From Croceivirga sp. (GTDB lineage Bacteria > Bacteroidota > Bacteroidia > Flavobacteriales > Flavobacteriaceae), in contig JANQQQ010000004.1 of assembly GCA_028284935.1 (NCBI GenBank), forward strand, positions 1 through 64,000: DNA of 64,000 nt. Direction: 5' to 3'. This document shows positions 2,157 through 21,822 of this stretch, piece after piece. Position numbers and translations under genes: made by a program. The notes under the pieces are model-generated. The model was not told where the DNA came from and did no database searches. It saw nothing but the letters and a program-made list of their open reading frames with translations. Position 1 is the first letter of the stretch. Each line of letters opens with the position of its first letter.

Positions 2157-2165
2157 ATTATAAAA

Positions 2166-2471: not shown

Positions 2472-2474
2472 CGA

Positions 2475-2589
2475 CACGCCAACAATGGCCATAACCCATG
2501 CCTACCGCTTAGCCATTTTTTCCTAACTTCAATTAACTAAAAAATGCCTGGCACTGGCCACCGGGTCATAGCCGGGACCGTTGTGGCTA
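2475..2589 (+). repeat. attC-like site 2 (GGCCATAACCCATGCC type)
   Basis: R'' cacgccaac, aatggccataacc ... ggtcatagccgggacc, R' gttgtggcta; related to site 26. Confidence 0.8.
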
Positions 2590-2604
2590 ATTTGAATCAA
2601 CTGA

Positions 2605-3369: not shown

Positions 3370-3372
3370 AAA

Positions 3373-4401
3373 ATGATAAAAAACAAAAAAGTCAAATTGA
3401 TTGCGCGCATTGTGTTGCTTGTTGGAACAGCAATATCCCTATTTTTTGTGCCATGGATTTTGGTAAAGGCATGGATTTTACCGTTACCCGATACGGTTCA
3501 AGAACAAGTGGATGAAGCCATCGGTCATGGATTTGATGGAATAATTGTTTATGTAGACGAAGCAGGAAAACCACCAGCATTCTATACAGGTGGTTGGAAG
3601 GATAGAAAAAATAGAATACCTGCCAACCCAAAATCATTATTTAAAATTGCAAGCATCAGTAAGTTGTATACCGCTGTAGCACTTACAAAATTGGTAAAAG
3701 AAAAGCGTTTGTCTTTTGATAATAAGCTAACGGATTACCTTCCAGAACTTAAAGAGAGAATTGAAAATGCAGAAGAAATTACCTTAAAAATGATGGTTCA
3801 ACATCGTTCTGGTATTCCAAATTTTACAGACAATCCAGCTTATTGGGAAAACGAGCAAGAAAATGGCAATAATGCTTTAGATTTTGCCCTCGACCTACCA
3901 GCCAGTTTTAAACCTGATAAGGGCTATGAATATTCGAATACGAATTATTTGTTGCTTCGCAGGATAATGGATGATGTTTTAGGGTATAGCCACAATCAGT
4001 ATATCAAAGAGAAAATATTGACTCCTCTAGCGCTGAATAACACTTTTTTTTCGATTACTGAAGTCAATTTAGATGATGTTATGAGCGGATATTACGTTGG
4101 CTATGATGAAGACTTTAAAGCTAACGAGTATGGAATGTTAGCAACAGCGGAAGATGTGGGTATATTCTTGCGAGCATTAAACGATGGTTCAGTTTTTAAC
4201 GAGGGAGAAAAGGAATTTTATCCTTACGAATTTAACCATGGAGGTTTGGTTGTAGGTTATCAGAGTCTTGCAGAATACCACAAAGATATTGATGCTGTGG
4301 TTGTTCAATTCATTAACACTACTGATTTTGAAGGTTATGAATGGAATTTATCGGAAATTACAATTAACCGAATTGTGAAAATAATTAGAAAGAAAAACTA
4401 G
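3373..4401 (+). CDS. Serine hydrolase (class C beta-lactamase-like)
   Basis: SISK motif (FKIASISKLYTAV), YSNTNY motif. Confidence 0.85.
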   Translation: MIKNKKVKLIARIVLLVGTAISLFFVPWILVKAWILPLPDTVQEQVDEAIGHGFDGIIVYVDEAGKPPAFYTGGWKDRKNRIPANPKSLFKIASISKLYTAVALTKLVKEKRLSFDNKLTDYLPELKERIENAEEITLKMMVQHRSGIPNFTDNPAYWENEQENGNNALDFALDLPASFKPDKGYEYSNTNYLLLRRIMDDVLGYSHNQYIKEKILTPLALNNTFFSITEVNLDDVMSGYYVGYDEDFKANEYGMLATAEDVGIFLRALNDGSVFNEGEKEFYPYEFNHGGLVVGYQSLAEYHKDIDAVVVQFINTTDFEGYEWNLSEITINRIVKIIRKKN

Positions 4402-4538
4402 CCATAACAAAATGTGTATAAGTAATAGTGGTTTAAGTGATAAAACCAAAGTATAAACATAAAGCTACGGTTAGCACAAAACCAAAAGGTTTGTGAGTAT
4501 AAATCCCCTACTACTCATACACGAGAACGTTGTGTGTA
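4399..4538 (+). repeat. attC-like site 3 (GTGTATAAGTAATAG type)
   Basis: R'' tagccataac (overlaps CDS stop), tgtgtataagtaatag ... ctactactcatacac, R' gttgtgtgta. Confidence 0.82.
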
Positions 4539-4550
4539 ATTATAAAATAA

Positions 4551-5387
4551 ATGAATAAACCAAAAAAAATAGATGCGGTAAACTTGATGTTTGAAATTGA
4601 CAAATTACTCATCGAGTTATTAGAAAGCTTATCCCCAGATGATTGGGAAAAGCAAACTATTGCACCAAAATGGAAAGTAAAAGACGTGGCTGTTCATCTT
4701 TTGGATGGAAATTTAAGGCACTTGTCAATGCTTCGTGATGGCTATTTTGGTGAAAAACCAGAGGAAATTAACTCTTATCAAGACCTAATAGATTTCTTTA
4801 ATAGGTTAAACGCTGACTGGGTAAAAGCTACAAAACGCTTGAGTCCAAAAGTAATTATTGACTTATTGAAAGTAACAGGTAAAGAAACTTGTGAATTTAT
4901 AGCCACTCTAAACCCTGATGATAAAGCTGTTTTCTCAGTTGCGTGGGCTGGCGAAAATGAATCTAAAAATTGGTTTCACATTGCAAGGGAATATACTGAA
5001 AAATGGCATCATCAACAGCAAATTAGATTTGCGGTAGGAAGAGAAAAAGACTTACTAAGAAACAAGTGGTTTTTACCTTATTTAGATACATCAGTTAGGG
5101 CACTTCCGCATCATTATCGAGATGTAGATGGTGAAAATATGGACTTAATCAAATTTACTTTTATTGGTGAATCTGAATATTCTTGGTTTTTACTTTATGA
5201 AAATAGTTGGAAACTATTGACCGATACGAATTTAGAACCTAAATGTGAGGTGATAATAAAGAATGAATATGCTTGGAAAATATTCACTAAGGGTATGAAA
5301 AGAGACGAAGCAATAAAAGCATCGAAAATAATCGGAAATGAAACTCTTGGGAAAAAAATATTTGATTTGATTGCTGTAATGGCTTAA
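4551..5387 (+). CDS. DinB / maleylpyruvate isomerase N-terminal domain-like protein
   Basis: LLESLSPDDWEKQTIAPKWKVKDVAVHLLDGNLRHL motif. Confidence 0.7.
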   Translation: MNKPKKIDAVNLMFEIDKLLIELLESLSPDDWEKQTIAPKWKVKDVAVHLLDGNLRHLSMLRDGYFGEKPEEINSYQDLIDFFNRLNADWVKATKRLSPKVIIDLLKVTGKETCEFIATLNPDDKAVFSVAWAGENESKNWFHIAREYTEKWHHQQQIRFAVGREKDLLRNKWFLPYLDTSVRALPHHYRDVDGENMDLIKFTFIGESEYSWFLLYENSWKLLTDTNLEPKCEVIIKNEYAWKIFTKGMKRDEAIKASKIIGNETLGKKIFDLIAVMA

Positions 5388-5394
5388 AAATAAC

Positions 5395-5557
5395 TACACG
5401 CAACAATGGCTATATTTCATTGCTGCCCTCCTACGCTAACAATTTTAATTAAATTTAATCGCAAACGAATAAGCCGTGGCAATACGTTCAACAGTGCCTT
5501 CCTCTCGCTCCGCTCGTCGGAGGCAATAACGAAATCATAGCCTTACCGTTGTGTATA
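5395..5557 (+). repeat. attC-like site 4
   Basis: R'' tacacgcaac, aatggctatatttcattgc ... ggcaataacgaaatcatagcc, R' gttgtgtata. Confidence 0.85.
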
Positions 5558-5587
5558 ATTTAAGTATACTTAAACTTAACCTAAAAG

Positions 5588-6385
5588 ATGAGAGTCTTAT
5601 TCTTCCTTTTATTCATTATTACCGCTCAATTCGGAACGTCACAATCCGATTATTTTAATGGGAAAAGAACGTATTGCGAGTTCATCGATGATGATTCAAA
5701 AAAGAAATATGAGCTTGGTATAATATGCATCTCGATGTGGGAGAGATATGGCGGAACAGCTGTTGATATATTTATGGATCTTGCAAAGAAAGATAGTACC
5801 TTTTGCGACGCTTATTTCTTTCTAGGCTACAGTCTACGACTACTGGACAGAGAAGAAGATGCAGTGAAAATGTATTACATCGCGGATAGTCTTGCAAACA
5901 ATAAATCTATAGAATTCAAACAGAACTTAGCAGTAACGGCAGGTCGGATTGGATACACAGATCTTTCACGAAAAAAATATCAGGAAATGATAGAATATTT
6001 CCCATACAGTCCCGAGGGGTATTACGGGGTTGGTGCTTCCAGCCTTTTCTTAGGTGATTATGAAAATGGCTTGAATCATATCAATGATGCGATTCATATT
6101 TACGAAAAGCTCAACAAAACTATTGGGGATGAAGTTTATTTTAATAAGGCGGTCTTGCTAACACTACTTGGAAGATTTGAACAAAGCATAAGTTTGTTCG
6201 ATAAAATAAAAAGTAGGGATATTGTAAAAGATGATATGTACAAAGTTTATTATTCATACAGTCTCATAAAGATCGGAAAAAAAAGAAATGACAATAGAAT
6301 GATCAAAAAAGCGAAAAAGCTCAAAGAAAAAGTAAATGACCTTTCACTTATAAATGACGATATAAGCAGAGAATTTAACGAATAA
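5588..6385 (+). CDS. Secreted TPR-like protein
   Basis: Signal peptide; helical repeat segments (YYGVGASSLFLGDYENGLNHINDAI). Confidence 0.6.
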   Translation: MRVLFFLLFIITAQFGTSQSDYFNGKRTYCEFIDDDSKKKYELGIICISMWERYGGTAVDIFMDLAKKDSTFCDAYFFLGYSLRLLDREEDAVKMYYIADSLANNKSIEFKQNLAVTAGRIGYTDLSRKKYQEMIEYFPYSPEGYYGVGASSLFLGDYENGLNHINDAIHIYEKLNKTIGDEVYFNKAVLLTLLGRFEQSISLFDKIKSRDIVKDDMYKVYYSYSLIKIGKKRNDNRMIKKAKKLKEKVNDLSLINDDISREFNE

Positions 6386-6390
6386 AAACT

Positions 6391-6527
6391 GTACACAACA
6401 ATGGCTATAATTCAACTTTCCCGTTGAACCTAAAACAAAACCGCTAACTTTAAAATCGCTCGATTTCTTTTTTGAAAAATCCTAACGGATTTCCCAAGTC
6501 GAAATCATAGCCGGACCGTTATGACCA
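6391..6527 (+). repeat. attC-like site 5
   Basis: R'' gtacacaac, aatggctataattcaac ... gaaatcatagccggacc, R' gttatgacca. Confidence 0.87.
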
Positions 6528-6540
6528 ATTACCGAGTACT

Positions 6541-7458
6541 ATGAATCCCATCAAAAATCTTACCTATTTCCTTTCCATTTTTGTTTTAAATCTTGGTTTT
6601 ACCCAGAATCTAAAACTCGACCTAGAAGTAGGGAAAACTTATTATCAAACTGCTCAAAACCATTTTATAATGACCCAGAAGATAGAAAATGAGGAATCTA
6701 CTGTTGAAACGGGCATAAATGGGAAAATGAGTTTTAAGGTAACCGGTAAAGATCTTGACAGTTACCATCTTGACGTGAAATTTCAAACCCTTGAAATAGA
6801 TATGAAGTCACCATTTGGAGACACTTATATAAATTCAAACGATTCGTCCTCTACCGATGTTTTTTCCAAACTTCTTAGACAAATGATTTCTAGTACTTTT
6901 AAGGTTAAAATGTTTCAAAATGGTTTTGTCAAAGAAATTGATATGGACAGTCTTTTTTCAGGACTACTTGAATCTTTTCCTGAAATTCCTAGATTCCAAA
7001 AGAGAGGTTTAATCGAAAAACTAAAACAGGCATATGGGGAAAAAGCATTCAAAGGAAATCTAGAGATGATTACCGCGATATTTCCAAACAAAAAAGTCAA
7101 TATCAACGACAAATGGAGAAATGAGATAAAATTGGAAAGCGGGATGTCCGCACAAATGAAAAATGAATTTACACTTAAGGAATACAATAAAAAATTTGCT
7201 TTAATTGAATTAAATTCTGCTACAAAGACCAACGACAAAGATTCCTACGTTCCCATCAATGGGAATCCAATGAAATACAACCTACATGGAACAATGAAAG
7301 GGGTAATTAAAATTGATACGAAAACAGGTTGGATCATTGATTCCGAAATGGTTCAAGATTTTAAAGGAACCATTGAAATGAAAGATGCCAAAAACAACGA
7401 AACAATATATTCCGTTCCAACTACATTTGACAATAAAATGATTATTAAAGGAAACTAA
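6541..7458 (+). CDS. Secreted DUF6263-like protein
   Basis: Signal peptide; LDLEVGKTYYQTAQNHFIMTQKIENEE; ANDKW-like motif (NINDKWRNEI). Confidence 0.5.
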   Translation: MNPIKNLTYFLSIFVLNLGFTQNLKLDLEVGKTYYQTAQNHFIMTQKIENEESTVETGINGKMSFKVTGKDLDSYHLDVKFQTLEIDMKSPFGDTYINSNDSSSTDVFSKLLRQMISSTFKVKMFQNGFVKEIDMDSLFSGLLESFPEIPRFQKRGLIEKLKQAYGEKAFKGNLEMITAIFPNKKVNINDKWRNEIKLESGMSAQMKNEFTLKEYNKKFALIELNSATKTNDKDSYVPINGNPMKYNLHGTMKGVIKIDTKTGWIIDSEMVQDFKGTIEMKDAKNNETIYSVPTTFDNKMIIKGN

Positions 7459-7461
7459 AAC

Positions 7462-7595
7462 TGACCATGACAATGGCTATAATTCAACCCTACCCTTAAG
7501 TGCCTTTCCAAATAATCTTAAGTTAGGGCAACTTAAATTAAACGGCGCGATTTCATCCCTTCTGGGCCGCAATCATAGCCGAACCGTCGGCAATA
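7462..7595 (+). repeat. attC-like site 6
   Basis: R'' tgaccatgac, aatggctataattc ... aatcatagccgaacc, R' gtcggcaata. Confidence 0.8.
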
Positions 7596-7609
7596 ATTTA
7601 AATGGTTTT

Positions 7610-9106
7610 ATGAAAAGAATATTCCTTACGATTTTAAGTATTTTGGTTTTAACCGCTTGTGAATCTGATAATTCTCCGGACACGATGACGGATGATGAGA
7701 TATCAGAAGGGATGGATGATAATGGTGAAGACGAACAAGACGATGACGACCCTGACCAGGAAGATGATGATATTATTAATGAAGATTTTTTTAATCTTCT
7801 AGTAGGTGATACTTCAAAAACCTGGAAAATTAAATCTGCGACCGTTGAAGGAAGTAATGGGAATTCAGACATCACCTTAAGGGCAAATGTGCAAGATGAT
7901 GAGTTTCTCTTTAAAGCCGAAGGGAATTTAAATAGCGGGGAATTTAGGGGACAATTGATTTGGAAGGAACGAAAAGTTTATGACTGGGCCAACAATGGAG
8001 CCAGTGATGCCTACCACCGTCCCAGGACCTTGGATTTTGATATCAACGAGGATGGCATCTTAATGACCTCAGAAATACAGCTGGAATTAAATGAAAATAT
8101 GGAAGTTCAAGGCTTTATACTTCTACAAAACAGCGAAACTATTTCCATTTCCTTGAAAGAAAAGCAGATGGAAGATTACAAAAGTATTCCAACTGCTCTG
8201 GATTTCGAATTTGTTGAAGACTTCAACAACATCCTTAGCTCTACAAAATCCACTGGTTTCAGAGCATCTTACCAAAATAACAATCTTTATCTATCCTATA
8301 GGGACGATGCCAATGGCAGGGTAAGGAAAGTATTCAAATATGACCCAGTAGGAAAAACATTGGATTCCACCCAAATCTCATTTCAGGGTAGCGAGTTTGT
8401 ATCCAGTAGATTGCATTTCTTCGACAATAAATTGGTTGTGATGGGAAGTGCCTTTATTTCAGAATTGGATTTATCCTTAGATCAAGAATTGAATACAATT
8501 TCTACCGGACTCGCCCAAAATTTATCGAGAGCAGGTACTGCTGCGGTTGATAATGCTATATATGTTCTCGGTGGGGATACCGGTATCTTTAACGAGCCCT
8601 ATCCCAACCATATTATTAGAATCTACGAAAATGACCCACTTGGTCTTAAGGATGAGTTTACTTTGAACACCCCCAGAAGATTGGCCGAAGGGGAAATTGT
8701 GGACGATATCATTTACATATTCGGTGGTGAAAACGTTGAAACAGCTGGTTCCACTGATGGTATTTTCATTTATGACAATCTAGTTACCTATAATTTGGTG
8801 GATAAAATAGTGGACGTGATACCGTTGTCGGTAGAAATGAACTATACCTCTGCTGTTAGATACGAGAATTTAATATTCGTTGCGGGAAGAAGCGCTGTAA
8901 CCAATATGGACACCCAAATTGTTTTTGGCGCACTCAACACAGAAACAAAAAATTTTAACGAGATTCCTTTCAGCCTTGAAAACCTGACCAGTGATGAATT
9001 CAATATTGAGGCCATGACCGTTTTAGAAAACACATTATATGTGGCATTGGCAAAAAAAACGAATTCTACCATTACCATTCAGGCCGTAAATCTTGAAAAT
9101 CTATAA
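7610..9106 (+). CDS. Kelch-like beta-propeller lipoprotein
   Basis: Lipobox LTAC, acidic linker, repeated IYVLGG/IYIFGG propeller motifs. Confidence 0.65.
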   Translation: MKRIFLTILSILVLTACESDNSPDTMTDDEISEGMDDNGEDEQDDDDPDQEDDDIINEDFFNLLVGDTSKTWKIKSATVEGSNGNSDITLRANVQDDEFLFKAEGNLNSGEFRGQLIWKERKVYDWANNGASDAYHRPRTLDFDINEDGILMTSEIQLELNENMEVQGFILLQNSETISISLKEKQMEDYKSIPTALDFEFVEDFNNILSSTKSTGFRASYQNNNLYLSYRDDANGRVRKVFKYDPVGKTLDSTQISFQGSEFVSSRLHFFDNKLVVMGSAFISELDLSLDQELNTISTGLAQNLSRAGTAAVDNAIYVLGGDTGIFNEPYPNHIIRIYENDPLGLKDEFTLNTPRRLAEGEIVDDIIYIFGGENVETAGSTDGIFIYDNLVTYNLVDKIVDVIPLSVEMNYTSAVRYENLIFVAGRSAVTNMDTQIVFGALNTETKNFNEIPFSLENLTSDEFNIEAMTVLENTLYVALAKKTNSTITIQAVNLENL

Positions 9107-9110
9107 TCAC

Positions 9111-9270
9111 TATTGCCAACAAGGTGTATAATTAATTGTGGCTTTATTCCTAGGACGGAATCCCTTTCAATCAATTATCTTTAGGTCACACGGCGGACAT
9201 TTTCCTGGCTTCGACAAACTCAGCCTACACAAACAGTCCTCAACTAATCATACACAAACCATTGTAAGAA
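9111..9270 (+). repeat. attC-like site 7 (GGTGTATAATTAATTG type)
   Basis: R'' tattgccaac, aaggtgtataattaattg ... caactaatcatacacaaacc, R' attgtaagaa. Confidence 0.8.
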
Positions 9271-9287
9271 ATTAAAATAGTACTTAT

Positions 9288-9962
9288 ATGTTCAAAAAAG
9301 CTTTATTGGCTATATATCTATTATGTACTACATCATGTAACCTATCAAAAAAAATCGATAAGGGACTAACCCCAAAGGAAATCGAAATCTTTTTTAAGTG
9401 TGCATTGGACGCCGAGTTTGGAGACAACGACTATGGATTAAAAAAATGGAACAAAGACATTTTGGTGTTCATTAAAAATCCTGAGCAAGAACAATTACTA
9501 AAAGAATTTAAAAAAATAAGGACGGAAATCAACGAGTTAAGTTCAGGTATCAAAATCATTCAAGTTGACGTAGAGTCAAAAGCCAATTTTATCATTTTTT
9601 TTTCTGATAAATATAATTATGCAGCATATGAACCATCCACTATGAACTATTTAGATGAAAACTTTGGCATGTTTTGGGTACACTGGAATCGAGAGTTAGA
9701 AATAGAAAAGGGAAGTATGTATGTTGATGTGAAAAGGACCAAAGAGATTGATTGTCAAAAACACTTGTTGCGGGAAGAACTAACTCAGGCGTTAGGTTTA
9801 ATGAACGATCATTCATATGACAAAGAAAGCATCTTCTATTCAGGTTGGAATTGTACAACAACTTATTCACTACTCGACAAAAAAATAATTGGGCTTTTTT
9901 TAGATGAAAAGCTGGAAGCAGGCATGAACTCTAGCCAAATAAAAAAGGTCATAGGAAAATAA
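9288..9962 (+). CDS. DUF2927-like lipoprotein
   Basis: Lipobox; LLREELTQALGLMNDHSYDKESIFYSG metalloprotease-like motif. Confidence 0.55.
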   Translation: MFKKALLAIYLLCTTSCNLSKKIDKGLTPKEIEIFFKCALDAEFGDNDYGLKKWNKDILVFIKNPEQEQLLKEFKKIRTEINELSSGIKIIQVDVESKANFIIFFSDKYNYAAYEPSTMNYLDENFGMFWVHWNRELEIEKGSMYVDVKRTKEIDCQKHLLREELTQALGLMNDHSYDKESIFYSGWNCTTTYSLLDKKIIGLFLDEKLEAGMNSSQIKKVIGK

Positions 9963-9964
9963 CC

Positions 9965-10102
9965 GCTTACAACAATGGCTATAATTCAGCTTTACCCTTG
10001 AACCAAAAACAAATTTCCTAACTTTAAAAACAGCTCGATTTCTCACTTGAAAAATCCTGTCGGATTTCCCAAGCCGAAATCATAGACGTAACGTTGTAAC
10101 AC
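9965..10102 (+). repeat. attC-like site 8
   Basis: R'' gcttacaac, aatggctataattcagc ... gccgaaatcatagacg, R' gttgtaacac. Confidence 0.85.
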
Positions 10103-10105
10103 ATT

Positions 10106-10705
10106 ATGAAAGGTAGTTCCATATTCATAATACTTATCCTAATTTTTAAGAATGGCCTGGTATCCGAATCTCAGGCAATGGATAATGAATTATGTAAAAT
10201 TCTCTATGAACTGTCTCTGGACAACCAAAGATATCGAGGTACTATGGGAAAAATATCCGACCATTTCCCTAATGCTTTGGATTCTTTAATACTCAATAGA
10301 GGATTGACCAAAACCGACTTTTATTCCCTACCTGAACAACGACAGGGAGAGTTAAATCAACAAGCCTTAGAATTAGCCAGAAGAAAGCTCAAGCCTTTAA
10401 TGAAGCAAAATGATTCACTTCTTGTCCTACAGCAAAAACTGGACTCGAAAAACACAAAAAAATTAATTGAAATTACTAAGAAGTACGGTTGGTTGACAGC
10501 AGAAGGATTGGGATGCAAGGAGAGATTCAGAACCGTACTGATTTTTAGACATGCACCTGAAAAATATTGGGATGAAATTAGTAGGCTAATCGAAAAGGAA
10601 AGGACGGAAAAAAGATTGTCAGGCTATGAGCACTATTTAATTGACAATCATTTGAAAGGTAGACCACCATTAACTAAAAAACCTTCGGACTTTATAAACA
10701 AATAA
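10106..10705 (+). CDS. Secreted hypothetical protein (DUF6624-like)
   Basis: Intact ORF between two attC-like sites; ITKKYGWLTAEGLGCKERF..RHAPE motif. Confidence 0.45.
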   Translation: MKGSSIFIILILIFKNGLVSESQAMDNELCKILYELSLDNQRYRGTMGKISDHFPNALDSLILNRGLTKTDFYSLPEQRQGELNQQALELARRKLKPLMKQNDSLLVLQQKLDSKNTKKLIEITKKYGWLTAEGLGCKERFRTVLIFRHAPEKYWDEISRLIEKERTEKRLSGYEHYLIDNHLKGRPPLTKKPSDFINK

Positions 10706-10706
10706 C

Positions 10707-10867
10707 GTGTAACAACAAGGACTATAGTTAATAGTTACAATTGGTTAACTTGAAACTAGAAACCATCAAAGGCTGGATTTGCCGCCCTTCGAAAGGCTCA
10801 GCGGGCGCGGCGGGAAATCTTTAGATTTCCCAGCGCCGCTACACATTATAGCGGAGCGTTCTGCCTA
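10707..10867 (+). repeat. attC-like site 9, with internal hairpin gggaaatctttagatttccc
   Basis: R'' gtgtaacaac, aaggactatagttaat ... cacattatagcggagc, R' gttctgccta. Confidence 0.75.
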
Positions 10868-10883
10868 ATTAAAACCAAAGACT

Positions 10884-11279
10884 ATGGATGTATTTAAAAA
10901 TATTGAATTTGTCGGAATGCTCTGTATGGGAGCTTTTGTAGGAGGAGTTCTGAATTACGGGCTATCAAAAATAAAAGATGATAATTCATTCGCAAAAATC
11001 ATAACCACAATTTTTGGTGCTGCCTTTAGTGGAGTAGTTTTTGTTTTTCTCGAAAAATTGGTAAACAAAGAGAATACCGATTCTTTACAGATCTATATGT
11101 ACCCAATTGGATTGATTCTTGCACTTTTATGGGCACAAATTCCTTACACAATAGAAAACCGAATTAAATCTGATAATATATATGTAAAAGTGATTGGAGT
11201 TATTCATTTTCTTGGGATTTCAGCTATTACCGTATTTCTGATTGTAAATATTTTTACTGGAAATATGAATACTAACTAG
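10884..11279 (+). CDS. Small multi-TM hypothetical protein
   Basis: Intact ORF with predicted TM segments; stop codon lies in R'' of site 10. Confidence 0.6.
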   Translation: MDVFKNIEFVGMLCMGAFVGGVLNYGLSKIKDDNSFAKIITTIFGAAFSGVVFVFLEKLVNKENTDSLQIYMYPIGLILALLWAQIPYTIENRIKSDNIYVKVIGVIHFLGISAITVFLIVNIFTGNMNTN

Positions 11280-11413
11280 GCACAACACGGTGTATAAGTA
11301 ATAGCGATTCAAGTAATAAAACGAAAGTATATACATAAAACAGAGGTCAGTGCAAAACCGAAAGGTTTGTAATTAAAATCTGCTACTGCTCATACACTGG
11401 ACCGTTGTGCTTC
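11277..11413 (+). repeat. attC-like site 10
   Basis: R'' taggcacaac, acggtgtataagtaatagcg ... tgctactgctcatacactggacc, R' gttgtgcttc. Confidence 0.85.
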
Positions 11414-11444
11414 ATGCCAAAAATCTAGTCAATAAAACCATGAA

Positions 11445-11866
11445 GTGATTTTAAACGATAGTTTCACTGTCAAACAAATTATTCGCAATATGCCGACAAG
11501 AGAATCAATAGAAAATTTTATCAAAGCAGTTGAAGAACAACCGCATGACCAAGTAATTTTAAATTATTATACGGAAGATGCGTCTATTCAAGAAAATCAA
11601 AATATGCCCAGAATCGGAATAGAAAACTTAGTTAGAAACGAAAAAAAATGCTGAAAAAAGCTATTAAAGTTCACTCTAAGTGCGTAAAACCGTTCTTTCA
11701 TTTTGAGGACAGCGTTGTAATAAGATGGAAATTTCGGTTTGAATGGATGGATGATTCAACGACCGAAATTGAGGAAATCGCATATCAAAAATGGCATGGA
11801 GAGAAAATCCAACATGAACAATTCTTTTATGACCCCAAACAATTTGAACCTAAAAAGAGAGGTTAG
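11445..11866 (+). pseudogene. SnoaL/NTF2-like protein, frameshifted at A8 tract 11641-11648
   Basis: 69-aa and 72-aa ORFs join as one NTF2-like domain if frame is corrected at the poly-A. Confidence 0.6.
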
Positions 11867-11867
11867 A

Positions 11868-12359
11868 ATGGAGGAAACTGTAAAAATTGACAGACTTGGA
11901 TCAGAAGAATTAGACAAGTTTGTTGACCTTATTAAATTATTTGGTGAAGTGTTTGAAATGAAAGACTTATCACTTCCTGGTGAAAAACACCTTCAAAAAC
12001 TTCTTAGTAGGAGTGATTTTGATGCATTCATAGCTCTTAATAATAACAAAGTAGTTGGAGGATTAACAATATATTTATTGGATCAATATTATTCTGAAAA
12101 GCCTTTAGCATACATTTATGACTTGGCAGTACGGACAAATGATCAAAGACAAGGAATTGGAAAAAAACTAATTGAAGAAGTCAAAAAAAGTTATAAGTTG
12201 AAAGGTTTCCAAGATGTCTTCGTTCAAGCAGAGGAAGTTGATAAACATGCAATTGAATTTTATAGATCAACAGATCCTTCAGAGGAAGAGCAGTTAGTCT
12301 ACTTTTCTTACTCACTGAATAAACAAAAAAAGTACGAAAGCAGTGATGGCTACAAGTAA
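11868..12359 (+). CDS. GNAT acetyltransferase, AAC(3)-I-like
   Basis: LFGEVF ... AYIYDLAVRTNDQRQGIGKKLIEEVK...G.QDVFVQAEEVDKHAIEFY follows the AAC(3)-I pattern. Confidence 0.72.
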   Translation: MEETVKIDRLGSEELDKFVDLIKLFGEVFEMKDLSLPGEKHLQKLLSRSDFDAFIALNNNKVVGGLTIYLLDQYYSEKPLAYIYDLAVRTNDQRQGIGKKLIEEVKKSYKLKGFQDVFVQAEEVDKHAIEFYRSTDPSEEEQLVYFSYSLNKQKKYESSDGYK

Positions 12360-12465
12360 TTGCTAGTTCTTGCCCATTCTGAAAGTTCCTGCGGAATTTT
12401 CAGTTCGGTGCATACTTGTAAAGCCCTGTATTAACCCACGCAACTACCCATTACCTAGACCATTA
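12336..12465 (+). repeat. attC-like site 11 (decayed)
   Basis: atggctacaagtaa ... ttttcagttcggtgcatacttgtaaag...cccacgcaactaccca resembles site 19; R' poorly preserved. Confidence 0.5.
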
Positions 12466-12566
12466 AACCAAATTACCACTGGTCAAGCTCCATACAGCTT
12501 CGAAAACGACAGTCGAACCATTTCGCTATATTTCCGTAAAATTCGCTGGACTGAACATAGTGCCGC

Positions 12567-12576
12567 GTTGTGCTTC
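12567..12576 (+). repeat. Isolated R'-like half site (catagtgccgc-GTTGTGCTTC)
   Basis: Identical to R' at 11404-11413. Confidence 0.4.
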
Positions 12577-12601
12577 GTGAAACTCGTCAAGACCCTTGGA
12601 A

Positions 12602-14092
12602 ATGAAAAGATCACATATTTATCGTAGTTCAATTGAGACATTATCTGTCATTCTTATCCTCTTATTTTTTTTAATTGGATGTGTAAGTAAAAATGAAACT
12701 GACTCCAAGCAATCCCCCAATATAATCTACATCCTAGCTGATGATTTAGGATATGGTGATCTGAGTTTTACTGGCCAAGGGAAGTTTGCTACCCCGAACA
12801 TTGATAGACTGGCCAAGCAGGGGATGTTTTTTGCCCAACACTATTCAGGCTCCACAGTCTGTGCTCCATCTCGCTCTTCGTTAATGACGGGACTACATAC
12901 GGGCCATACTTTTATTCGCGGAAATAAGGAAGTACAACCTGAAGGTCAATATCCAATCGATTCTACTGCCTGTACCATTGCCAAACTTCTAAAAAACAGT
13001 GGCTATGTAACGGGCGCATTTGGAAAATGGGGATTGGGCTATCCTGGTTCGGCAGGAGACCCCAATCACCAGGGATTTGAGGAATTCTATGGATACAACT
13101 GTCAAAGACAGGGCCATAATTACTACCCGTACCATTTATGGCACAACCAAATAAAGGTGGTTCTTGAGGGAAACCAACTTAGGAAAACCAACACCTATGC
13201 CCCAGAATTAATTCATAGCAAAGCACTTAGATTTTTAGAAAACAATAAAGACACAAGTTTTTTCCTCTACTACCCATCCATTATTCCACATGCGGAATTG
13301 GCTGCTCCTGAAGAATTAATGAAAATATATAGAAACGAGTTTGTTCCAGAAGAAAACTATATAGGTATTGACGAAGGACCATATTACAAAAACGGAGGTT
13401 ATGGTTCGCAGGATGAACCACATACCGCTTTTACTGCCATGGTAAGACTGCTGGATGAGCAGGTTGGTGACATTTGGCACAAGGTCGAAGAGCTAGGTAT
13501 CTCAGAAAATACCTTGATCATTTTCACTTCAGATAACGGTCCACATATGGAGGGCGGAGCAGACCCCGATTTTTTTGATAGTAATGGAAAATTCAGGGGC
13601 TATAAAAGGGATCTATACGAAGGCGGAATACGGGTTCCGATGATTGCATATTGGCCCAATAAGATCAAACCCGGAACCATTTCCAATCATGTTTCTGCCT
13701 TCTTTGACTTTCTTCCCACCGTTTGTGACATTGCCCAAATAGAAACACCTCATGATATTGATGGCATTTCATTCCTCCAAGAACTTTTAGGAAATCCCCA
13801 ACGTAAACACCAACATCTATATTGGGAGTTTCATGAACATGGTGGAAAACAGGCAGTCCGGCTCGGTAACTGGAAAGGTATACGCCTAAACATGAGTGAC
13901 AATCCTAACGCAGCTATTGAGCTCTATGATTTATCAAATGATCCCGGGGAACAAAACAACATCGCCGATGGTCACCCGGATGTTGTCCGAAAAATCGCGG
14001 ACATCATGGCAAAAGAGCATGAACCATCAGAAATCTTCCAGTTCCAATTCGAAAAAAAGCTAATCAAGGAAACCCAACAAATGCTAAAATGA
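12602..14092 (+). CDS. Arylsulfatase (S1-type) lipoprotein
   Basis: NIIYILADDLGYGDL; FGly signature CAPSRSSLMTGLHTGH. Confidence 0.92.
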   Translation: MKRSHIYRSSIETLSVILILLFFLIGCVSKNETDSKQSPNIIYILADDLGYGDLSFTGQGKFATPNIDRLAKQGMFFAQHYSGSTVCAPSRSSLMTGLHTGHTFIRGNKEVQPEGQYPIDSTACTIAKLLKNSGYVTGAFGKWGLGYPGSAGDPNHQGFEEFYGYNCQRQGHNYYPYHLWHNQIKVVLEGNQLRKTNTYAPELIHSKALRFLENNKDTSFFLYYPSIIPHAELAAPEELMKIYRNEFVPEENYIGIDEGPYYKNGGYGSQDEPHTAFTAMVRLLDEQVGDIWHKVEELGISENTLIIFTSDNGPHMEGGADPDFFDSNGKFRGYKRDLYEGGIRVPMIAYWPNKIKPGTISNHVSAFFDFLPTVCDIAQIETPHDIDGISFLQELLGNPQRKHQHLYWEFHEHGGKQAVRLGNWKGIRLNMSDNPNAAIELYDLSNDPGEQNNIADGHPDVVRKIADIMAKEHEPSEIFQFQFEKKLIKETQQMLK

Positions 14093-14262
14093 ATATGCGA
14101 ACCGAGGGTTATTATATGACAATAGGAACCAGTAACTTAAGTGATTCTGAAAGCTGGGACACATACTCCTTTTGGTTGAGTGTTATGCGGTATAATCAGA
14201 CGATAGGACAAATTGGTTTTAAATGAAACAGTTTTACTTCATAAATTAAGAAAAAAACCAAA

Positions 14263-15963
14263 ATGAATTTGATCATTAAGAAAACAACAAGTAACTTTTT
14301 GAAAATTATTATCTTTTTGTGGTTTGTATGTGATTTTGGAAATATTAATGCTCAAAACAGTGCGATAATTCCAAAAAGGCCTGACAACTTTCAACCATAC
14401 ATCTATAAATACTCAACAAAGCAATTAAAAAAATTCACGCGTAAACATATAAAAAAAGCAGCTGCTGCGGTTGAACAAATGGAAGAGGTTGTTTTCAAAG
14501 GTCCTTACAAAGCATCGTTTACTTCTTTATCGGAACACCAAACCCCCGAATGGTTTAAGGATGCAAAATTTGGGATAGCAGTTAATTATGGTATTTACAG
14601 TGTTGCCGGATATGGCCCGAAAGGCTATGGAGGCAACTACTACACGGATGTTTACCTGGATTACATTTATACAAAAGGCAAAGATGACTATTACAAGAAC
14701 CATTGGGGGGAGAATTTTGAGAAAGACGATTTTATTCCCCTGTTTACGGCTGAAGCGTTAAACGCGGAAGAATACATAAAGTTATTTAAAAATGCAGGAG
14801 CAAAGTATATTGTGCAATTCAATATGCATCGTTCAACCGGTATGCCTCTTTGGAATAGCGAATACACTTTTCGTGATGCCATAGATATGCCACCTTACCG
14901 CGATTTAACGGATGAGTTTGTAAAAGCATGCCGAAAATACGAGTTGAAGTATGGTATGTATTTGAACCTTGAGGACAGTTACTATCCCTTACTTATGCCA
15001 GATAACACAATCCATGTTAGGGAATGGACAAAAATGGATAACAACCCGATTGCAACCAATCATTCATTTGAAGTAACATATCCATTTAGTGCGGAAAACG
15101 ATGCAAGAAAACTACAGGGAAAAATACCGGTATATGATTATGTTGATGATTATCTTTTACCCATTTCAAAAGAATTTATAGACAAATATGAACCCGACTA
15201 TATTTGGTTTGATGGGGGATGGAAACGTCCATTTTGGTATTACAAATCTGATAAAATTGCGGCTTACTTTTATAATAAATTCCATAACCAAAAAGAGGTA
15301 TTGGTAAACAGTCGTTTGGGCAATGATGCATACGGGTTGCTCGGCGACGTATTAGTGAGTGAAGGAGGGCAAGTAGATGGAGGGGAAATTGCCGATTATT
15401 GGGAGGAATGCAGACCTATGGGAAAGAATTTTGCGTATGACTGGCGGGAAAATAAAATGAATGTCCCGTCTTCGAAGCGTCTTATTCAAATGTTAATAAG
15501 AATTGTAGCAAATGGAGGAAACTTATTGTTGATCGTAACCCCGGATGGAGCGGGTAAAATTCCTGAATACCAGATTGACAGATTAAATGATATAGGAACA
15601 TGGCTCAGCTTTAACGGAGAAGCAGTTTATAATACCCTCGAAACCAAATGGATAAGCGAGGAGTCCATACTTGGAAATAAGGTTTATTACACCCAAAGCA
15701 AAGATGAAAAGTACGTCTATGCAAATTGTTTCGAATTGGAAAATGACGAAGTACTGCTTGTAAAAGTACGTGCAAAAGAGGGAAGTGAAATTAAACTACT
15801 TGGTTACAATCAACCTCTTACTTGGTATAATGTACCCTGGGGATTAACGATTAAACTACCCACCGAGTTTCAGGAAATAAAAAATAGAAGAGATGCTCCG
15901 GCTTGGGTGTTTAGGTTCGAGCCCAAAGATGGCCCAAGCCCAACCCGCCAACAAAATGAGTAA
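14263..15963 (+). CDS. GH29 alpha-L-fucosidase
   Basis: HQTPEWFKDAKFGIAVNYGIYSVAGYGP; DYIWFDGGW; NGGNLLLIVTPDGAG. Confidence 0.9.
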   Translation: MNLIIKKTTSNFLKIIIFLWFVCDFGNINAQNSAIIPKRPDNFQPYIYKYSTKQLKKFTRKHIKKAAAAVEQMEEVVFKGPYKASFTSLSEHQTPEWFKDAKFGIAVNYGIYSVAGYGPKGYGGNYYTDVYLDYIYTKGKDDYYKNHWGENFEKDDFIPLFTAEALNAEEYIKLFKNAGAKYIVQFNMHRSTGMPLWNSEYTFRDAIDMPPYRDLTDEFVKACRKYELKYGMYLNLEDSYYPLLMPDNTIHVREWTKMDNNPIATNHSFEVTYPFSAENDARKLQGKIPVYDYVDDYLLPISKEFIDKYEPDYIWFDGGWKRPFWYYKSDKIAAYFYNKFHNQKEVLVNSRLGNDAYGLLGDVLVSEGGQVDGGEIADYWEECRPMGKNFAYDWRENKMNVPSSKRLIQMLIRIVANGGNLLLIVTPDGAGKIPEYQIDRLNDIGTWLSFNGEAVYNTLETKWISEESILGNKVYYTQSKDEKYVYANCFELENDEVLLVKVRAKEGSEIKLLGYNQPLTWYNVPWGLTIKLPTEFQEIKNRRDAPAWVFRFEPKDGPSPTRQQNE

Positions 15964-16054
15964 TCCTAAAAACAATGTAATTGAACAGAGAATGTTACAT
16001 TTAATGAAAATTGCAGCTATTTGATAATAGGTTTGCTCTTCGAAATACTAAACC

Positions 16055-16080
16055 TTTCATATACGTAGCCTTTGTACACC
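16055..16080 (+). repeat. Right half of a decayed attC-like site
   Basis: ttcatatacgtagcc-tttgtacacc; R'-like tttgtaca partly complements gtctacaac at 16811. Confidence 0.35.
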
Positions 16081-16086
16081 AGCTAA

Positions 16087-16803
16087 ATGAACATCTACGG
16101 AATAATTTTTAATCGGATTTTTTTTCGAGTTCTCCCAATTGCTGGACTAATAATTTTTTCAATTATCTACAATGAAATAACACTAAATAATATTCTTGAA
16201 AAATTCAAATTTTGGGACTGGGCCGGACTAATACTATTGGTTGTTTTTCTCTATGATCTGGCATTGCACCTAAAAAAAGCTCACAAAAGGAATAAATCCC
16301 TCCAACAAAACAAACTGGAGAAAATCCCAAAAGAAATTGAATTACCGAAAAAATTAAACTTTTTGGATAAAAGAATCAGTATTAATGAAAACAGTATAGA
16401 CATTTACTTAAAAAACGAAGTAATTGTCCATCTGAGTAAATCAAAGAAGCAAATAGAGATTAGAAAATTTATAGGAAAGAAAATTCTAAATTTCAACGAC
16501 ATACAATACCTCTTTCTTGAATACAACCAATATGAAAAAGACACCTTGAAAGACATATTATCTGATAACTCTCATTATGATAAAAATGTTTGGAAAAATT
16601 CATTAATGGCTATGCTTAAAAACGGGAAAACAGTAAACCTTTTTAACGCAAAGCTTGAGGAAACTAATTACGAACAATTGGTTGATTATCAAATCTCCGG
16701 TAAATCGGAAGAAAAATCATATTTACGGAATGGAACAAATATTGTTCGGTTGTTTAGTTACTACATGAACAAGGAATATTTAATAATAAACAATACTATC
16801 TAA
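16087..16803 (+). CDS. Membrane-anchored hypothetical protein
   Basis: Intact ORF with two N-terminal TM segments. Confidence 0.6.
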   Translation: MNIYGIIFNRIFFRVLPIAGLIIFSIIYNEITLNNILEKFKFWDWAGLILLVVFLYDLALHLKKAHKRNKSLQQNKLEKIPKEIELPKKLNFLDKRISINENSIDIYLKNEVIVHLSKSKKQIEIRKFIGKKILNFNDIQYLFLEYNQYEKDTLKDILSDNSHYDKNVWKNSLMAMLKNGKTVNLFNAKLEETNYEQLVDYQISGKSEEKSYLRNGTNIVRLFSYYMNKEYLIINNTI

Positions 16804-16810
16804 AAAGCCT

Positions 16811-16950
16811 GTCTACAACAAGGGCTATAATTCAGCTTTCTCCCCTAACCCAATTTGAAAAACTATATCTTTAAAAATGGCTCGATTTCTCACTTGAAAA
16901 ATCCTTGCGGATTTGCCAAGCTGAAATCGTAGCCGAGACCGTTGTAGCAC
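16811..16950 (+). repeat. attC-like site 14
   Basis: R'' gtctacaac, aagggctataattcagc ... gctgaaatcgtagccgagacc, R' gttgtagcac. Confidence 0.87.
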
Positions 16951-16952
16951 AT

Positions 16953-17645
16953 ATGAAAAGAATATTGGAAATATCATTAACCCTAATTTTTGGAACATTT
17001 TGCTTTGGTCAAAATAACTTGATGACTGAAAGCGAAACGCATATTTTTTGGCAACCTGAAAATAAACTGGAATGGACGGATTTTCGAGCAGATGCAAATA
17101 AAATACCAAACGCTAAAAAATATTGCGATACTGTTGGCCTTTGTACTGCAGCTTCACTTGGGGTTTTTACCGTATTGGACATTCCAAAAAAGAAAAGACA
17201 AAGAGGAAGACTAAAAGAGAAAATTTATGTTGCGCCAGCTTTTGAGTATTCGACATCATATGTTGTTCAGAAGGACAGTCTTGGAATTGAAAAACAACAA
17301 GTGGTTTTCGATATGTTCGAGTTATCTGCAAGATATATACGGAAAGAGTTAAGTTCAATGCTGGAGAAAATGGACGGTTACGGAACTTTATCCATATGGT
17401 TTAAAACCATAGAAAGTGATGCACAAAAACTAAGGACAGAAATGGTGGATTCCTACACTAAAGATGTGTACATCGATAATCGACCCGGCGCTTATTTGGA
17501 ATGGAAAGAGAGAGTGGACAGTACATTAAATGACTTGGAAAAATTTGCTACAAAACCCGAAGATTGCCATCGTTTTATCACAAAACAACCTTTGGACAAG
17601 GATTATAAAATGGCTAAAACTGTTATGGGAAAACTATTTGAATAA
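16953..17645 (+). CDS. Secreted hypothetical protein (DUF922-like)
   Basis: Signal peptide MKRILEISLTLIFGTFCFGQ; WQPENKLEWTDFRAD. Confidence 0.45.
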   Translation: MKRILEISLTLIFGTFCFGQNNLMTESETHIFWQPENKLEWTDFRADANKIPNAKKYCDTVGLCTAASLGVFTVLDIPKKKRQRGRLKEKIYVAPAFEYSTSYVVQKDSLGIEKQQVVFDMFELSARYIRKELSSMLEKMDGYGTLSIWFKTIESDAQKLRTEMVDSYTKDVYIDNRPGAYLEWKERVDSTLNDLEKFATKPEDCHRFITKQPLDKDYKMAKTVMGKLFE

Positions 17646-17653
17646 AAAAATAC

Positions 17654-17828
17654 GTGCTATAACAATGGCTATAATTCATTGCTAGCCTATAAACCCAATG
17701 TTTTTAATTAAATTAATTGTCCAACAAACAAACCTCAGAAACAAATTCAACAGTGCCTTCCTCTCCCCTTCGGTAAACTCAGGGTCGTCGGAGGAAATAA
17801 CGAAATCATAGCCGGACCGTTAGCGGTA
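17654..17828 (+). repeat. attC-like site 15
   Basis: R'' gtgctataac, aatggctataattcattgc ... aacgaaatcatagccggacc, R' gttagcggta. Confidence 0.87.
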
Positions 17829-17839
17829 ATTTCCATTTA

Positions 17840-18541
17840 ATGAAGAAAATCCTCACCACTTTCATGCTCCTAACCATAACTTTGGGGTTCTCGCAGACTA
17901 AAATTTCAGAAACGGATTCAACTTTATTTACCGAGACTTATTACAGAAATTACTTTTTTACTTTTGGGCCAATTTTCAATGTTTCTGAATCTCTTATTGG
18001 ACTACAAGTCGGTAATGGGAATGATGAGCAACCGATTGTTCATTTTGAGGACATTTCCGCGGACATTCTGTATAAAGTAAGCGGACAAACAGACTTTAGT
18101 GAAAACTATTCAATTGGTGGTGAGGTGTCATGGAATTATCCATTCAAAGCCAAACTCTCGATATTTACGTTGAACTTTAACCAAATTCGGATTGTCGATA
18201 ATGGCTTTTTTAATAGAAATGTTGGCTTAGCTACCAGATACTACTTAAGATTTACACCAAACGTGCACATTTTAGCAAAACTTAGCCACCAAAGGTTAAA
18301 TCAACAAAACAATGTTGGATTTGGACTTGGACTTCAAAACGAACATCGAAAAATATATTATGGCTTTAGAACAGACTATTTTAAGGACTATTTCAACTAT
18401 TCTGTTTTTCTGCAGGGTTTTCTCTTAAAGAGCAAACTTAGTCTACGACTTACCTACGACCGAATCGATAATTTCGACTTTTTTAATGTTGGACTTAACT
18501 ATGTGATAATAAAAACAGCCGCCAACAAGGTGTATGATTAA
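17840..18541 (+). CDS. Secreted/outer-membrane beta-barrel-like hypothetical protein
   Basis: Signal peptide MKKILTTFMLLTITLGFSQ; alternating beta-rich pattern; C-terminus encoded by attC. Confidence 0.55.
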   Translation: MKKILTTFMLLTITLGFSQTKISETDSTLFTETYYRNYFFTFGPIFNVSESLIGLQVGNGNDEQPIVHFEDISADILYKVSGQTDFSENYSIGGEVSWNYPFKAKLSIFTLNFNQIRIVDNGFFNRNVGLATRYYLRFTPNVHILAKLSHQRLNQQNNVGFGLGLQNEHRKIYYGFRTDYFKDYFNYSVFLQGFLLKSKLSLRLTYDRIDNFDFFNVGLNYVIIKTAANKVYD

Positions 18542-18653
18542 TTGCGGTCGGATTTCCTAAAATGGAAATCCTTGCAATCAACTATCTTCGGTACAGGCGG
18601 ACATTTCACATTGCAAAAGTCCACAACTAATCCTACACGAGCCGTTGGTTATA
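18518..18653 (+). repeat. attC-like site 16
   Basis: R'' gccgccaac, aaggtgtatgattaattgcgg ... cacaactaatcctacacgagcc, R' gttggttata. Confidence 0.82.
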
Positions 18654-18673
18654 ATTAAAGAAAACATCTATCC

Positions 18674-19558
18674 ATGAAAAAAACATATTGTTCGATTTTA
18701 TTGTTCTCATCAATATATACCTATTCCCAAATTGAAATACATGATTCTGATTTAAACAAACTGGTTGAAATCGGTGAATACTATTCTAAGAATGTAATGT
18801 TAACCCAAAAGTCTGCTATCGAAGACTTAGAGAATTTTAGAACTGAGAAATTAAAAAATATAGTGAACGTACTTCAAATTCAGTCTAAACAAAGTATTGA
18901 AATTTTAGATAAAAAATATTTGAACAGACCAAATTATGATGATTTAGTAATGTGGTACGTAATTAGAGAAATACATTACAATTTGACCGACAGGGAAAAT
19001 GAATCCAGAGCTAGCATTGAAATTGCCAGAGAGGTAGCAAAAAAGAAGATTGATGAAAGATGGTTATTAGACAATTATTATCATAGACTATATGGAGCCG
19101 TTGCCATGATTTTTAATTCAACCGACCTGAGTGAATATAATATTGAACTAGACAACTATGGATTAAAGTCCAACACAGAGAAAGCTATTGTCTTTCTAAA
19201 TCTAATGGATGCCCTTGGAACTAGATTTAGAGTTCTTCAAGTGATGAAGAATTATAAAAAGTTAATGGATTTTACTTCTAGAATGCCAAAGTTCAATGGT
19301 AAAGAATATTATTACTACACGGACTTTCAATATGAAGATTTTGAATGGATTGGGCACAAAAAAATTGAAATGTTCGATGAAAGACATATTGGGCTTTTGT
19401 ATGAAATAATTTTGGCACATATGGACGCTGAATCGGATATTAACGGAAAAAAAGAAACATTGGAAATTTACCAGAACTCTATTATGACTAAGCCGGAATA
19501 TTTTAAATATTCAAGTCTTGAATCAGATTTGAAAAAGCTATATAAAAAAAGTAAATAA
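18674..19558 (+). CDS. Secreted hypothetical protein
   Basis: Intact ORF with signal peptide between two attC-like sites. Confidence 0.55.
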   Translation: MKKTYCSILLFSSIYTYSQIEIHDSDLNKLVEIGEYYSKNVMLTQKSAIEDLENFRTEKLKNIVNVLQIQSKQSIEILDKKYLNRPNYDDLVMWYVIREIHYNLTDRENESRASIEIAREVAKKKIDERWLLDNYYHRLYGAVAMIFNSTDLSEYNIELDNYGLKSNTEKAIVFLNLMDALGTRFRVLQVMKNYKKLMDFTSRMPKFNGKEYYYYTDFQYEDFEWIGHKKIEMFDERHIGLLYEIILAHMDAESDINGKKETLEIYQNSIMTKPEYFKYSSLESDLKKLYKKSK

Positions 19559-19559
19559 C

Positions 19560-19700
19560 TATAGGTAACAATGGCTATAATTCAACTTTCCCTTTGTACC
19601 ACAATCGAAATCTCTAACTTTAAAATGGTTTGATTTCTTTCTTGAAATTTTCTAATCGAAAATTCCCAAGCCGAAATCATAGCCGAGACCGTTGGCGTTA
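19560..19700 (+). repeat. attC-like site 17
   Basis: R'' tataggtaac, aatggctataattcaac ... gccgaaatcatagccgagacc, R' gttggcgtta. Confidence 0.87.
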
Positions 19701-19722
19701 ATTTAAGGAAGTTCGCATTTGA

Positions 19723-20210
19723 ATGGAAAATACAGGAATAATACCTGAGATATCAAGCTTTGAAGACTTATTAAAAAAGTTGGAATATGATTTGAAAAGA
19801 TACTATAAAAACAATCATTCTTACGAATTTATTGATTGTATAATGTCACTAAACGCTCTTCCGGAATGGATTAAAACTCCAATGACACATCGGATGAGTT
19901 AAAGGATTTGGCACGTGAAAAAGAATCAATTATGAAAGGTAACAACGGATTTCAATTCGACGAATCGAAACTGGAATCTGAAATTGATCACCAGTTGAGA
20001 TTTATTAGACTTTTTTGCAATCATTCCAAGCACAAAACGGACTCTGGACATATTCCACGTATAATTTCGAAATACGGAGCTACTCTTCCTATGACATTAC
20101 CGGCGAAATTATATAGCATAATTGCGATAGGACAAATAGAATTTGACGCTGAGTTTTTACTTAGGAACGTCCATAATTTCTGGAAACGAAATATTGAAAA
20201 TAAAAACTAA
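19723..20210 (+). pseudogene. Hypothetical protein, frameshifted near 19873-19900
   Basis: MENTGIIPEISSFEDLL...LPEWIK stops at 19902; restoring one A at 19873-19876 joins NSNDTSDELKDLAREKESIMKG... to the 100-aa ORF. Confidence 0.6.
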
Positions 20211-20366
20211 TGCCAAAACGGTGTATAATTAATTGCGACTGGATTCCTGAAACGGAATCCTTTGCAATCAATTATCTTTAGTCTCAGGCAGACATTTTCC
20301 CGGCTTCGACAAGCCCAGCCTACATGAAATGTCCGCAACCAATGCTACACATGACCGTTGTACATA
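20208..20366 (+). repeat. attC-like site 18
   Basis: taatgccaaaac, ggtgtataattaattgcgac ... gcaaccaatgctacacatgacc, R' gttgtacata. Confidence 0.8.
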
Positions 20367-21056
20367 ATGCCACAAATGAAAAGCCTACTGACATTCATAT
20401 TAATAATAATTGGTTTAAAGGTATTTGCCACACCACAAGTTCCTGATATCTTAATTTATAATGGAAAGGAATATGAATGGAGTGGTTATAGTCCCGCTTT
20501 TGAATATTTTGAGCTGAACAATTTTCAACCACCAGAAGAAGCAGTCATTACTACTGGAAACTATTCTGTATTCATAATGACATACGAAATAGTTGACCAA
20601 AAACTATATTTAATAGACGTTGAAGTTGAAGTGGAACAAGAATCTGAATATGGTTCTGACTATCCTCCAGATTTGGTAAGTAAATCAGTTTTCAAAAGCT
20701 ACTTTCCTAATGGGAAAAGGTTTCTAGTGGACTTCTATTCTAATATTCAACTAATTCCATACGGAGAAGTTATCGAAGTAACTAAAAACGATTGGACTGA
20801 CATTCATTGGGAAGATTATTTAGTATTCGAAATAAATAATGGAACTGTAATAACTGAACTTGACGTGAATTACAAACAGTTTAACAGACTTAAAAGAAAA
20901 CAATTTAGAGCATTCAAAAAAACAACTGAATATCAAAAAACCACCGAACTTGAAAAAGAAAACCTTAATAGATTTAATGAATTTCGACCAAACAAATTTA
21001 CGATGGATGAATATTTGGAATTGATTATTTTGAGGCTAATAAAACAATTAAAATAA
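20367..21056 (+). CDS. Secreted hypothetical protein
   Basis: Signal peptide MKSLLTFILIIIGLKVFA; intact ORF. Confidence 0.55.
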   Translation: MPQMKSLLTFILIIIGLKVFATPQVPDILIYNGKEYEWSGYSPAFEYFELNNFQPPEEAVITTGNYSVFIMTYEIVDQKLYLIDVEVEVEQESEYGSDYPPDLVSKSVFKSYFPNGKRFLVDFYSNIQLIPYGEVIEVTKNDWTDIHWEDYLVFEINNGTVITELDVNYKQFNRLKRKQFRAFKKTTEYQKTTELEKENLNRFNEFRPNKFTMDEYLELIILRLIKQLK

Positions 21057-21062
21057 AGCACT

Positions 21063-21224
21063 ATTTACAACAATGGCTATAAGTAAGGGCGCCGTTCTCG
21101 CCTACCCTTCGGCTAGCGCTGCGCTTCTTAGAATCAGAATCCTCGTGGATTTTCAGTTTGGTGTGTACTTGCAAAGCTAAGTGATAACCCACACAACTAC
21201 CTATATCCGAGACCGTTGTGTGTA
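21063..21224 (+). repeat. attC-like site 19
   Basis: R'' atttacaac, aatggctataagtaaggg ... acccacacaactacctatatccgagacc, R' gttgtgtgta. Confidence 0.8.
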
Positions 21225-21251
21225 ATTTGAACGGTAAAAGTTCTACAAAAA

Positions 21252-21767: not shown

Positions 21768-21822
21768 CCGAAAATTAATGCATAGTAGCCCTAACGGACG
21801 ATTATATGAGCCATTTGCACAA
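21749..21822 (+). repeat. attC-like site 20 (short type, about 74 bp)
   Basis: R'' tacacacaac, agtgtataaccgaaaattaatgcatagtag..cggacgattatatgagcc, R' atttgcacaa. Confidence 0.7.

Follow-up and report, generated by a model that had tools for sequence, protein, structure and literature searches.

A probable meta-AAC0020-group acetyltransferase gene within an integron-type cassette array of a flavobacterium with no recognisable integron integrase

Is the acetyltransferase gene at 11868-12359 a member of the AAC(3)-I group of aminoglycoside-resistance enzymes lying in an attC-flanked cassette, as the initial annotation proposed, and what kind of DNA surrounds it? We addressed both questions in the window, that is, the whole stretch of 64,000 nucleotides of the Croceivirga sp. 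contig, together with the rest of its genome and with homologues in other genomes and plasmids. The wider array turned out to be the more surprising part: these are integron-type cassettes in a flavobacterium without an integron integrase.

Placement of the acetyltransferase

The gene under study is the following:

11868..12359, + strand: GNAT acetyltransferase of the meta-AAC0020 group, based on open reading frame, homology, clade and selection

The reading frame extends from ATG (11868) to TAA (12359) over 163 codons with no internal stop, and LFGEVF, AYIYDLAVRTNDQRQGIGKKLI and DVFVQAEEVDKHAIEFY are all present in the protein, in the order that the initial annotation had given. It is a single-copy gene, with no close copies elsewhere in its own genome according to a genome search, and no homologues were found among phage records. 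Comparison with the Aquimarina homologue yielded dN 0.19 and dS 1.20 (dN/dS ≈ 0.16, NG86), i.e., purifying selection, which implies that the protein was under constraint through most of that divergence.

Membership in the GNAT family is clear from a Pfam Acetyltransf_1 match (E 4e-14). Among the NCBIfam models AAC_3_I fits best (E 7e-28, residues 7-136), but its score of 97.6 bits misses the curated cut-off of 200 bits, reaching only about half of it. Among solved structures, phmmer placed meta-AAC0020 (5F46-5F49, 5U08) first, with E 9e-56 over residues 4-150, while the AAC(3)-I chains 5HMN, 4YFJ, 6BVC and 1BO4 gave E 4e-14 to 9e-12. Identities range from 69% with Aquimarina sp. RZ0, 61% with meta-AAC0020 (147 residues, the full domain), 55% with the homologue of genome G121 and 53% with a Myroides plasmid homologue, down to 27-33% with AAC(3)-Ia/b/c/d/h.

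That best model, the motifs held in common and in the same order, and the fact that AAC(3)-I (AAC(3)-Ia, Ib, Ic, Id, Ih; 1BO4, 5HMN) is likewise a GNAT family carried in integron cassettes would favour a true AAC(3)-I enzyme, acetylating the 3-amino group and forming an environmental offshoot of the cassette family known from clinics. We consider this improbable. In maximum-likelihood trees built from translated homologues of plasmids and genomes, the AAC(3)-I rows (AAC(3)-Ia to Ih) form a 100/100 clade with the window protein outside; the latter pairs with Aquimarina (100/99) and falls, with meta-AAC0020 and other Bacteroidota homologues, in a 12-row clade supported at 99/99. An AU test of a constrained clade of AAC(3)-I plus the window protein returned p 0.053, which is not decisive alone; we therefore base the exclusion from AAC(3)-I on the missed cut-off, the identities and the support of the branches. 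The window protein also has PLAYIYDLAV in place of the SEIYIYDLAV of AAC(3)-I and a shorter loop preceding the HLQKLL segment. The initial annotation was right about a GNAT related to AAC(3)-I and carried as a cassette gene, while the nearest characterised enzyme is meta-AAC0020.

With meta-AAC0020 the window protein shares the motifs as well as the clade, and its Tyr131 corresponds to chain residue 137, the tyrosine that is mutated to Ala in 5U08. The two differ in the metagenomic origin of meta-AAC0020 and in a C-terminal tail of about 13 residues, absent in meta-AAC0020, which exists because the frame of the window gene runs into the 3′ attC-like site described below. Xu et al. (2017, ACS Infectious Diseases) reportedly showed that meta-AAC0020 makes cells resistant to sisomicin, tobramycin and gentamicin C and that it acetylates at 6′, i.e., has AAC(6′) regiospecificity, which also speaks against a true AAC(3)-I. 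Judged by sequence, the window gene most likely encodes a meta-AAC0020-group aminoglycoside acetyltransferase rather than AAC(3)-I. If expressed, the enzyme would transfer the acetyl group of acetyl-CoA to an aminoglycoside amino group, most likely at 6′ if it resembles its nearest characterised relative.

The cassette and the array

The gene is the second of two in a cassette with the following parts:

11404..12475, + strand: two-gene cassette, bounded by the G/TT crossover in the 5′ site and by the decayed 3′ site
11276..11414, + strand: intact 5′ attC-like site, R″ GGCACAAC, R′ GTTGTGC
11490..11654, + strand: first cassette gene, 5′ part; reading frame interrupted near 11640, in an A8 run
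11648..11866, + strand: first cassette gene, 3′ part in another frame; stop just before the GNAT start codon
12330..12475, + strand: decayed 3′ attC-like site, from alignment to 21055-21228; overlaps the last GNAT codons

The cassette begins with G/TTGTGCTTC at 11404, inside the intact site. No intact attC lies 3′ of the GNAT gene: the site there is decayed, aligning well with the intact site 21061-21225 but having lost the CAAC of R″ and changed the GTTG of R′ to ATTA. The two cassette ends show only a gapped partial match, in which the leftover 3′ arm TACGAAAGCAGTG resembles the expected CATGAAGCACAAC. The GNAT frame enters this decayed site, and the cassette homologues in genomes G154 and G103 also terminate within their own sites. 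For the first gene, Pfam gave no match to the frame-joined sequence (11490-11866), and an early impression of an NTF2-like fold went unsupported. The cassette is real but partly decayed; with its first gene frameshifted and its 3′ site decayed, it may be a relic even though the GNAT frame is kept. It would now be locked in place, because of the decay of the 3′ site. The claim of an attC-flanked cassette gene stands for the cassette and its 5′ side, while the 3′ site is decayed and the surrounding array has no IntI and is no recognised integron.

Downstream, still within the array, the segment 12565-16075 carries a sulfatase and an alpha-L-fucosidase, with no clean attC-like sites between 12.48 and 16.07 kb. 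At 12567, GTTGTGCTTCGTG resembles the start of a cassette and differs little from that of the GNAT cassette, GTTGTGCTTCATG.

The cassette belongs to an array of about 35 attC-like sites, 74-178 nt in length, that covers about 38 kb including its continuation on contig C13. The array and its further sites in the window are as follows:

1..36905, + strand: cassette array, all sites on the + strand; continues 5′ on C13:1-1312, reversed
2016..2157, + strand: attC-like site
2473..2590, + strand: attC-like site
4398..4539, + strand: attC-like site
5394..5558, + strand: attC-like site
6389..6528, + strand: attC-like site
7461..7596, + strand: attC-like site
9110..9271, + strand: attC-like site
9963..10103, + strand: attC-like site
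10706..10868, + strand: attC-like site
16809..16951, + strand: attC-like site, bottom strand folds (z = -4.0)
17653..17829, + strand: attC-like site
18516..18654, + strand: attC-like site
19559..19701, + strand: attC-like site
20207..20367, + strand: attC-like site
21061..21225, + strand: attC-like site, the intact relative used to recognise the decayed site 12330..12475
22298..22475, + strand: attC-like site
23312..23440, + strand: attC-like site
24135..24297, + strand: attC-like site, divergent
24828..24987, + strand: attC-like site
26710..26825, + strand: attC-like site
27291..27401, + strand: attC-like site
28846..28920, + strand: attC-like site, short
29409..29548, + strand: attC-like site
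30719..30855, + strand: attC-like site
31477..31652, + strand: attC-like site
33135..33254, + strand: attC-like site
34538..34681, + strand: attC-like site
35821..35894, + strand: attC-like site, the shortest (74 nt)

Each site starts with NNNNCAAC-AATGGCTATAATTCA or a variant, at or directly past a stop codon, and closes with CATAGCCGAGACC-GTTGNNN shortly ahead of the next start codon. The array sites and the 5′ site of the GNAT cassette have the two complementary arm pairs and the conserved AAC / GTT core of attC, with cores that are mostly GTTGNNN, unlike the GTTRRRY of class 1. Across 26 sites the arms form 14 pairs in which 87.9% of cells are paired, compared with 25-43% when the arms are slid, and cells with compensatory changes on both sides number 26 against 7.4 in shuffles. 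An Rfam search of the window returned no match.

In integrons the crossover falls between G and TT, and as a result a cassette's opening bases are complementary to the 3′ arm at the opposite end of that cassette and not to the arm that they face. This is the pattern seen here: over 29 cassettes, own-end complementarity averages 4.59 of 6 positions, against 2.39 for the neighbour and 2.21 when shuffled (z = 11.1), and the own end is the better match in 26 of 28 cassettes. Examples are GTTGTGCACA with TGTGCACAAC (93 and 2024) and GTTGTATGGC with GCCATACAAC (28911 and 29417). Own-end complementarity is the footprint of integron-type cassette insertion at G/TT. Neither terminators nor copied repeats would be expected to produce it, which weighs heavily against taking the sites for terminators or for a dispersed repeat family, in an array grown by ordinary duplication and transposition. 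Such an origin would agree with hairpin-capable sites placed directly past stop codons and with the absence of an integrase, but the repeats are concentrated in this array, each cassette has a different gene and all genes share one orientation; we regard it as highly improbable.

Several other observations concern the contents of the array and the rest of the genome. Three more GNAT genes of other subfamilies occur in the array (21252-21767, 35923-36363 and 36386-36868), and the cassette genes 28943-29404, 3373-4401, 29565-30716 and 32005-33132 weakly resemble Fos/VOC fosfomycin enzymes and class C beta-lactamase-like serine hydrolases, with every score far under the curated cut-off. Elsewhere in the genome, attC-like sites were seen in C3:48001-68000, possibly a second small array, and in C36.

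The locus and its recombinase

On C13 the array runs on through three more sites, after which come a gene for a 504-aa membrane protein and then an ABC transporter gene. In two congeners about 0.2 kb separates dnaJ from the ABC gene, its neighbour there, whereas dnaJ in this genome lies 44.4 kb into the window; the region with the array was therefore inserted between the two. The inserted region comprises the array and flanking genes (window 1-46061), with an uncertain 3′ limit since SelO was not found in the congeners.

A search with TIGR02249 detected no IntI over the cut-off in the organism's own genome or in 400 genomes of the family; the best matches in the own genome were XerD and an XerC-like protein. 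No recombinase occurs at the 5′ end of the array on C13 or at its 3′ end in the window, and no intI with attI lies next to the array. A covariance model of the sites gave strong matches in at least 33 of 151 family genomes, each of a different genus, and such genome counts are lower bounds because the model (R1) misses long-hairpin sites and only some of the candidates were scored in the genome search.

The array resembles a sedentary chromosomal integron or a CALIN in its single orientation, small gene units, foldable sites with paired outer and inner arms and G/TT footprint. It differs in having no IntI over the cut-off in the genome or in the 400 family genomes, in its mostly GTTGNNN cores and in its Bacteroidota host. 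To our knowledge, integrons are almost absent from Bacteroidota. For Bacteroidetes, the IntegronFinder 2.0 work gives only In0 elements from earlier and one complete Salinibacter integron (PMC9024848), and models of attC origin cover no Bacteroidota (PMC8352920).

We propose, and hold to be probable, that the window gene encodes a meta-AAC0020-group GNAT that acetylates aminoglycosides and lies second in a two-gene integron-type cassette, part of a chromosomal array collected at G/TT by a non-IntI recombinase. As in integrons, the cassettes would have been gathered by a site-specific recombinase that acts on folded attC-like sites between G and TT, and this enzyme would be neither a recognised IntI nor encoded at the array.

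Related cassettes in other flavobacteria and on a clinical plasmid

Several homologues of the GNAT gene are themselves carried in cassettes. On the Myroides odoratimimus plasmid p63039, from a human isolate (NZ_CP013691.1 53506-61928), blaOXA, blaMYO-1 and aadS come after the homologue, with attC-like sites between the genes. The ends of its cassette match (GTTAGCGGGC / ACCCGCTAAC), those of blaMYO-1 match at 5/6 positions, and those of the blaOXA cassette show no complementarity. Upstream lies a divergent IntI/XerA-like tyrosine recombinase (TIGR02249 166 versus XerC 142) whose gene overlaps that of an IS91-type transposase. In G154 (G154:C9, 6679-8200) the ends also match (GTTGTGTGTAA / CTACACACAAC), and the next cassette encodes a class A subclass A2 beta-lactamase, with complementary ends though its own 3′ site is truncated. 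The homologues of G231, G103 and Aquimarina adjoin attC-like sites, some of them decayed; none were seen beside those of Flavisolibacter, Rhabdobacter, G121 and G310.

This company bears on what the enzyme acts upon. What a GNAT acts on is difficult to foresee, members of the family that share 60% identity could favour different amines, and the protein misses the AAC_3_I cut-off; it also comes from an environmental genome and from an array full of unrelated functions. Its natural substrate might then be an amino sugar, a polyamine, a peptide or a small toxic amine, with aminoglycoside activity being incidental. Although this has an appreciable chance of being correct, we think it unlikely, given the closeness of the protein to meta-AAC0020, which has been crystallised under the name of an aminoglycoside acetyltransferase, the grouping of the Myroides homologue with resistance genes on a clinical plasmid and the beta-lactamase cassette that adjoins the G154 homologue. 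Aminoglycoside acetylation remains our preferred reading. The suggestion that the gene would illuminate the origin of clinical AAC(3)-I found no support; what the data support instead is an environmental pool of cassette-borne aminoglycoside acetyltransferases.

Units of similar build are known from another flavobacterium. According to a 2026 study, aph(3′)-IVb flanked by 27 bp of upstream and 140 bp of downstream sequence is integrated by Riemerella anatipestifer without homology, and the 140 bp 3′ UTR folds like attC (PMC13148043). Similar behaviour is ascribed to lnu(H) and blaRATA (PMC13148043). Like the cassettes of the window, these insertions consist of a short 5′ UTR, a gene and an attC-like 3′ UTR of about 140 bp (PMC13148043); they involve single genes acquired by transformation, whereas a natural array of about 35 sites is found here, and the likeness is one of unit structure. 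On these grounds the window array would fit as a natural array of Riemerella-type units.

Taken together, an IntI-less array of about 38 kb with a G/TT footprint and a relative of meta-AAC0020 within it points to an overlooked cassette pool, whose reach is indicated by homologues in like cassettes adjoining blaOXA, blaMYO-1, aadS and a subclass A2 beta-lactamase. Tentatively, and with somewhat less than even confidence, we suggest that flavobacteria may possess their own integron-like cassette system, made of attC-like sites and a non-IntI recombinase, perhaps host XerC/XerD or an enzyme like the IntI/XerA-like protein of Myroides, and that clinical Bacteroidota plasmids would have drawn aminoglycoside acetyltransferases and beta-lactamases from its cassettes. 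The array provides an explanation, at the level of sequence, for the way in which Riemerella inserts genes without homology, and it opens the recombinase's identity to testing.
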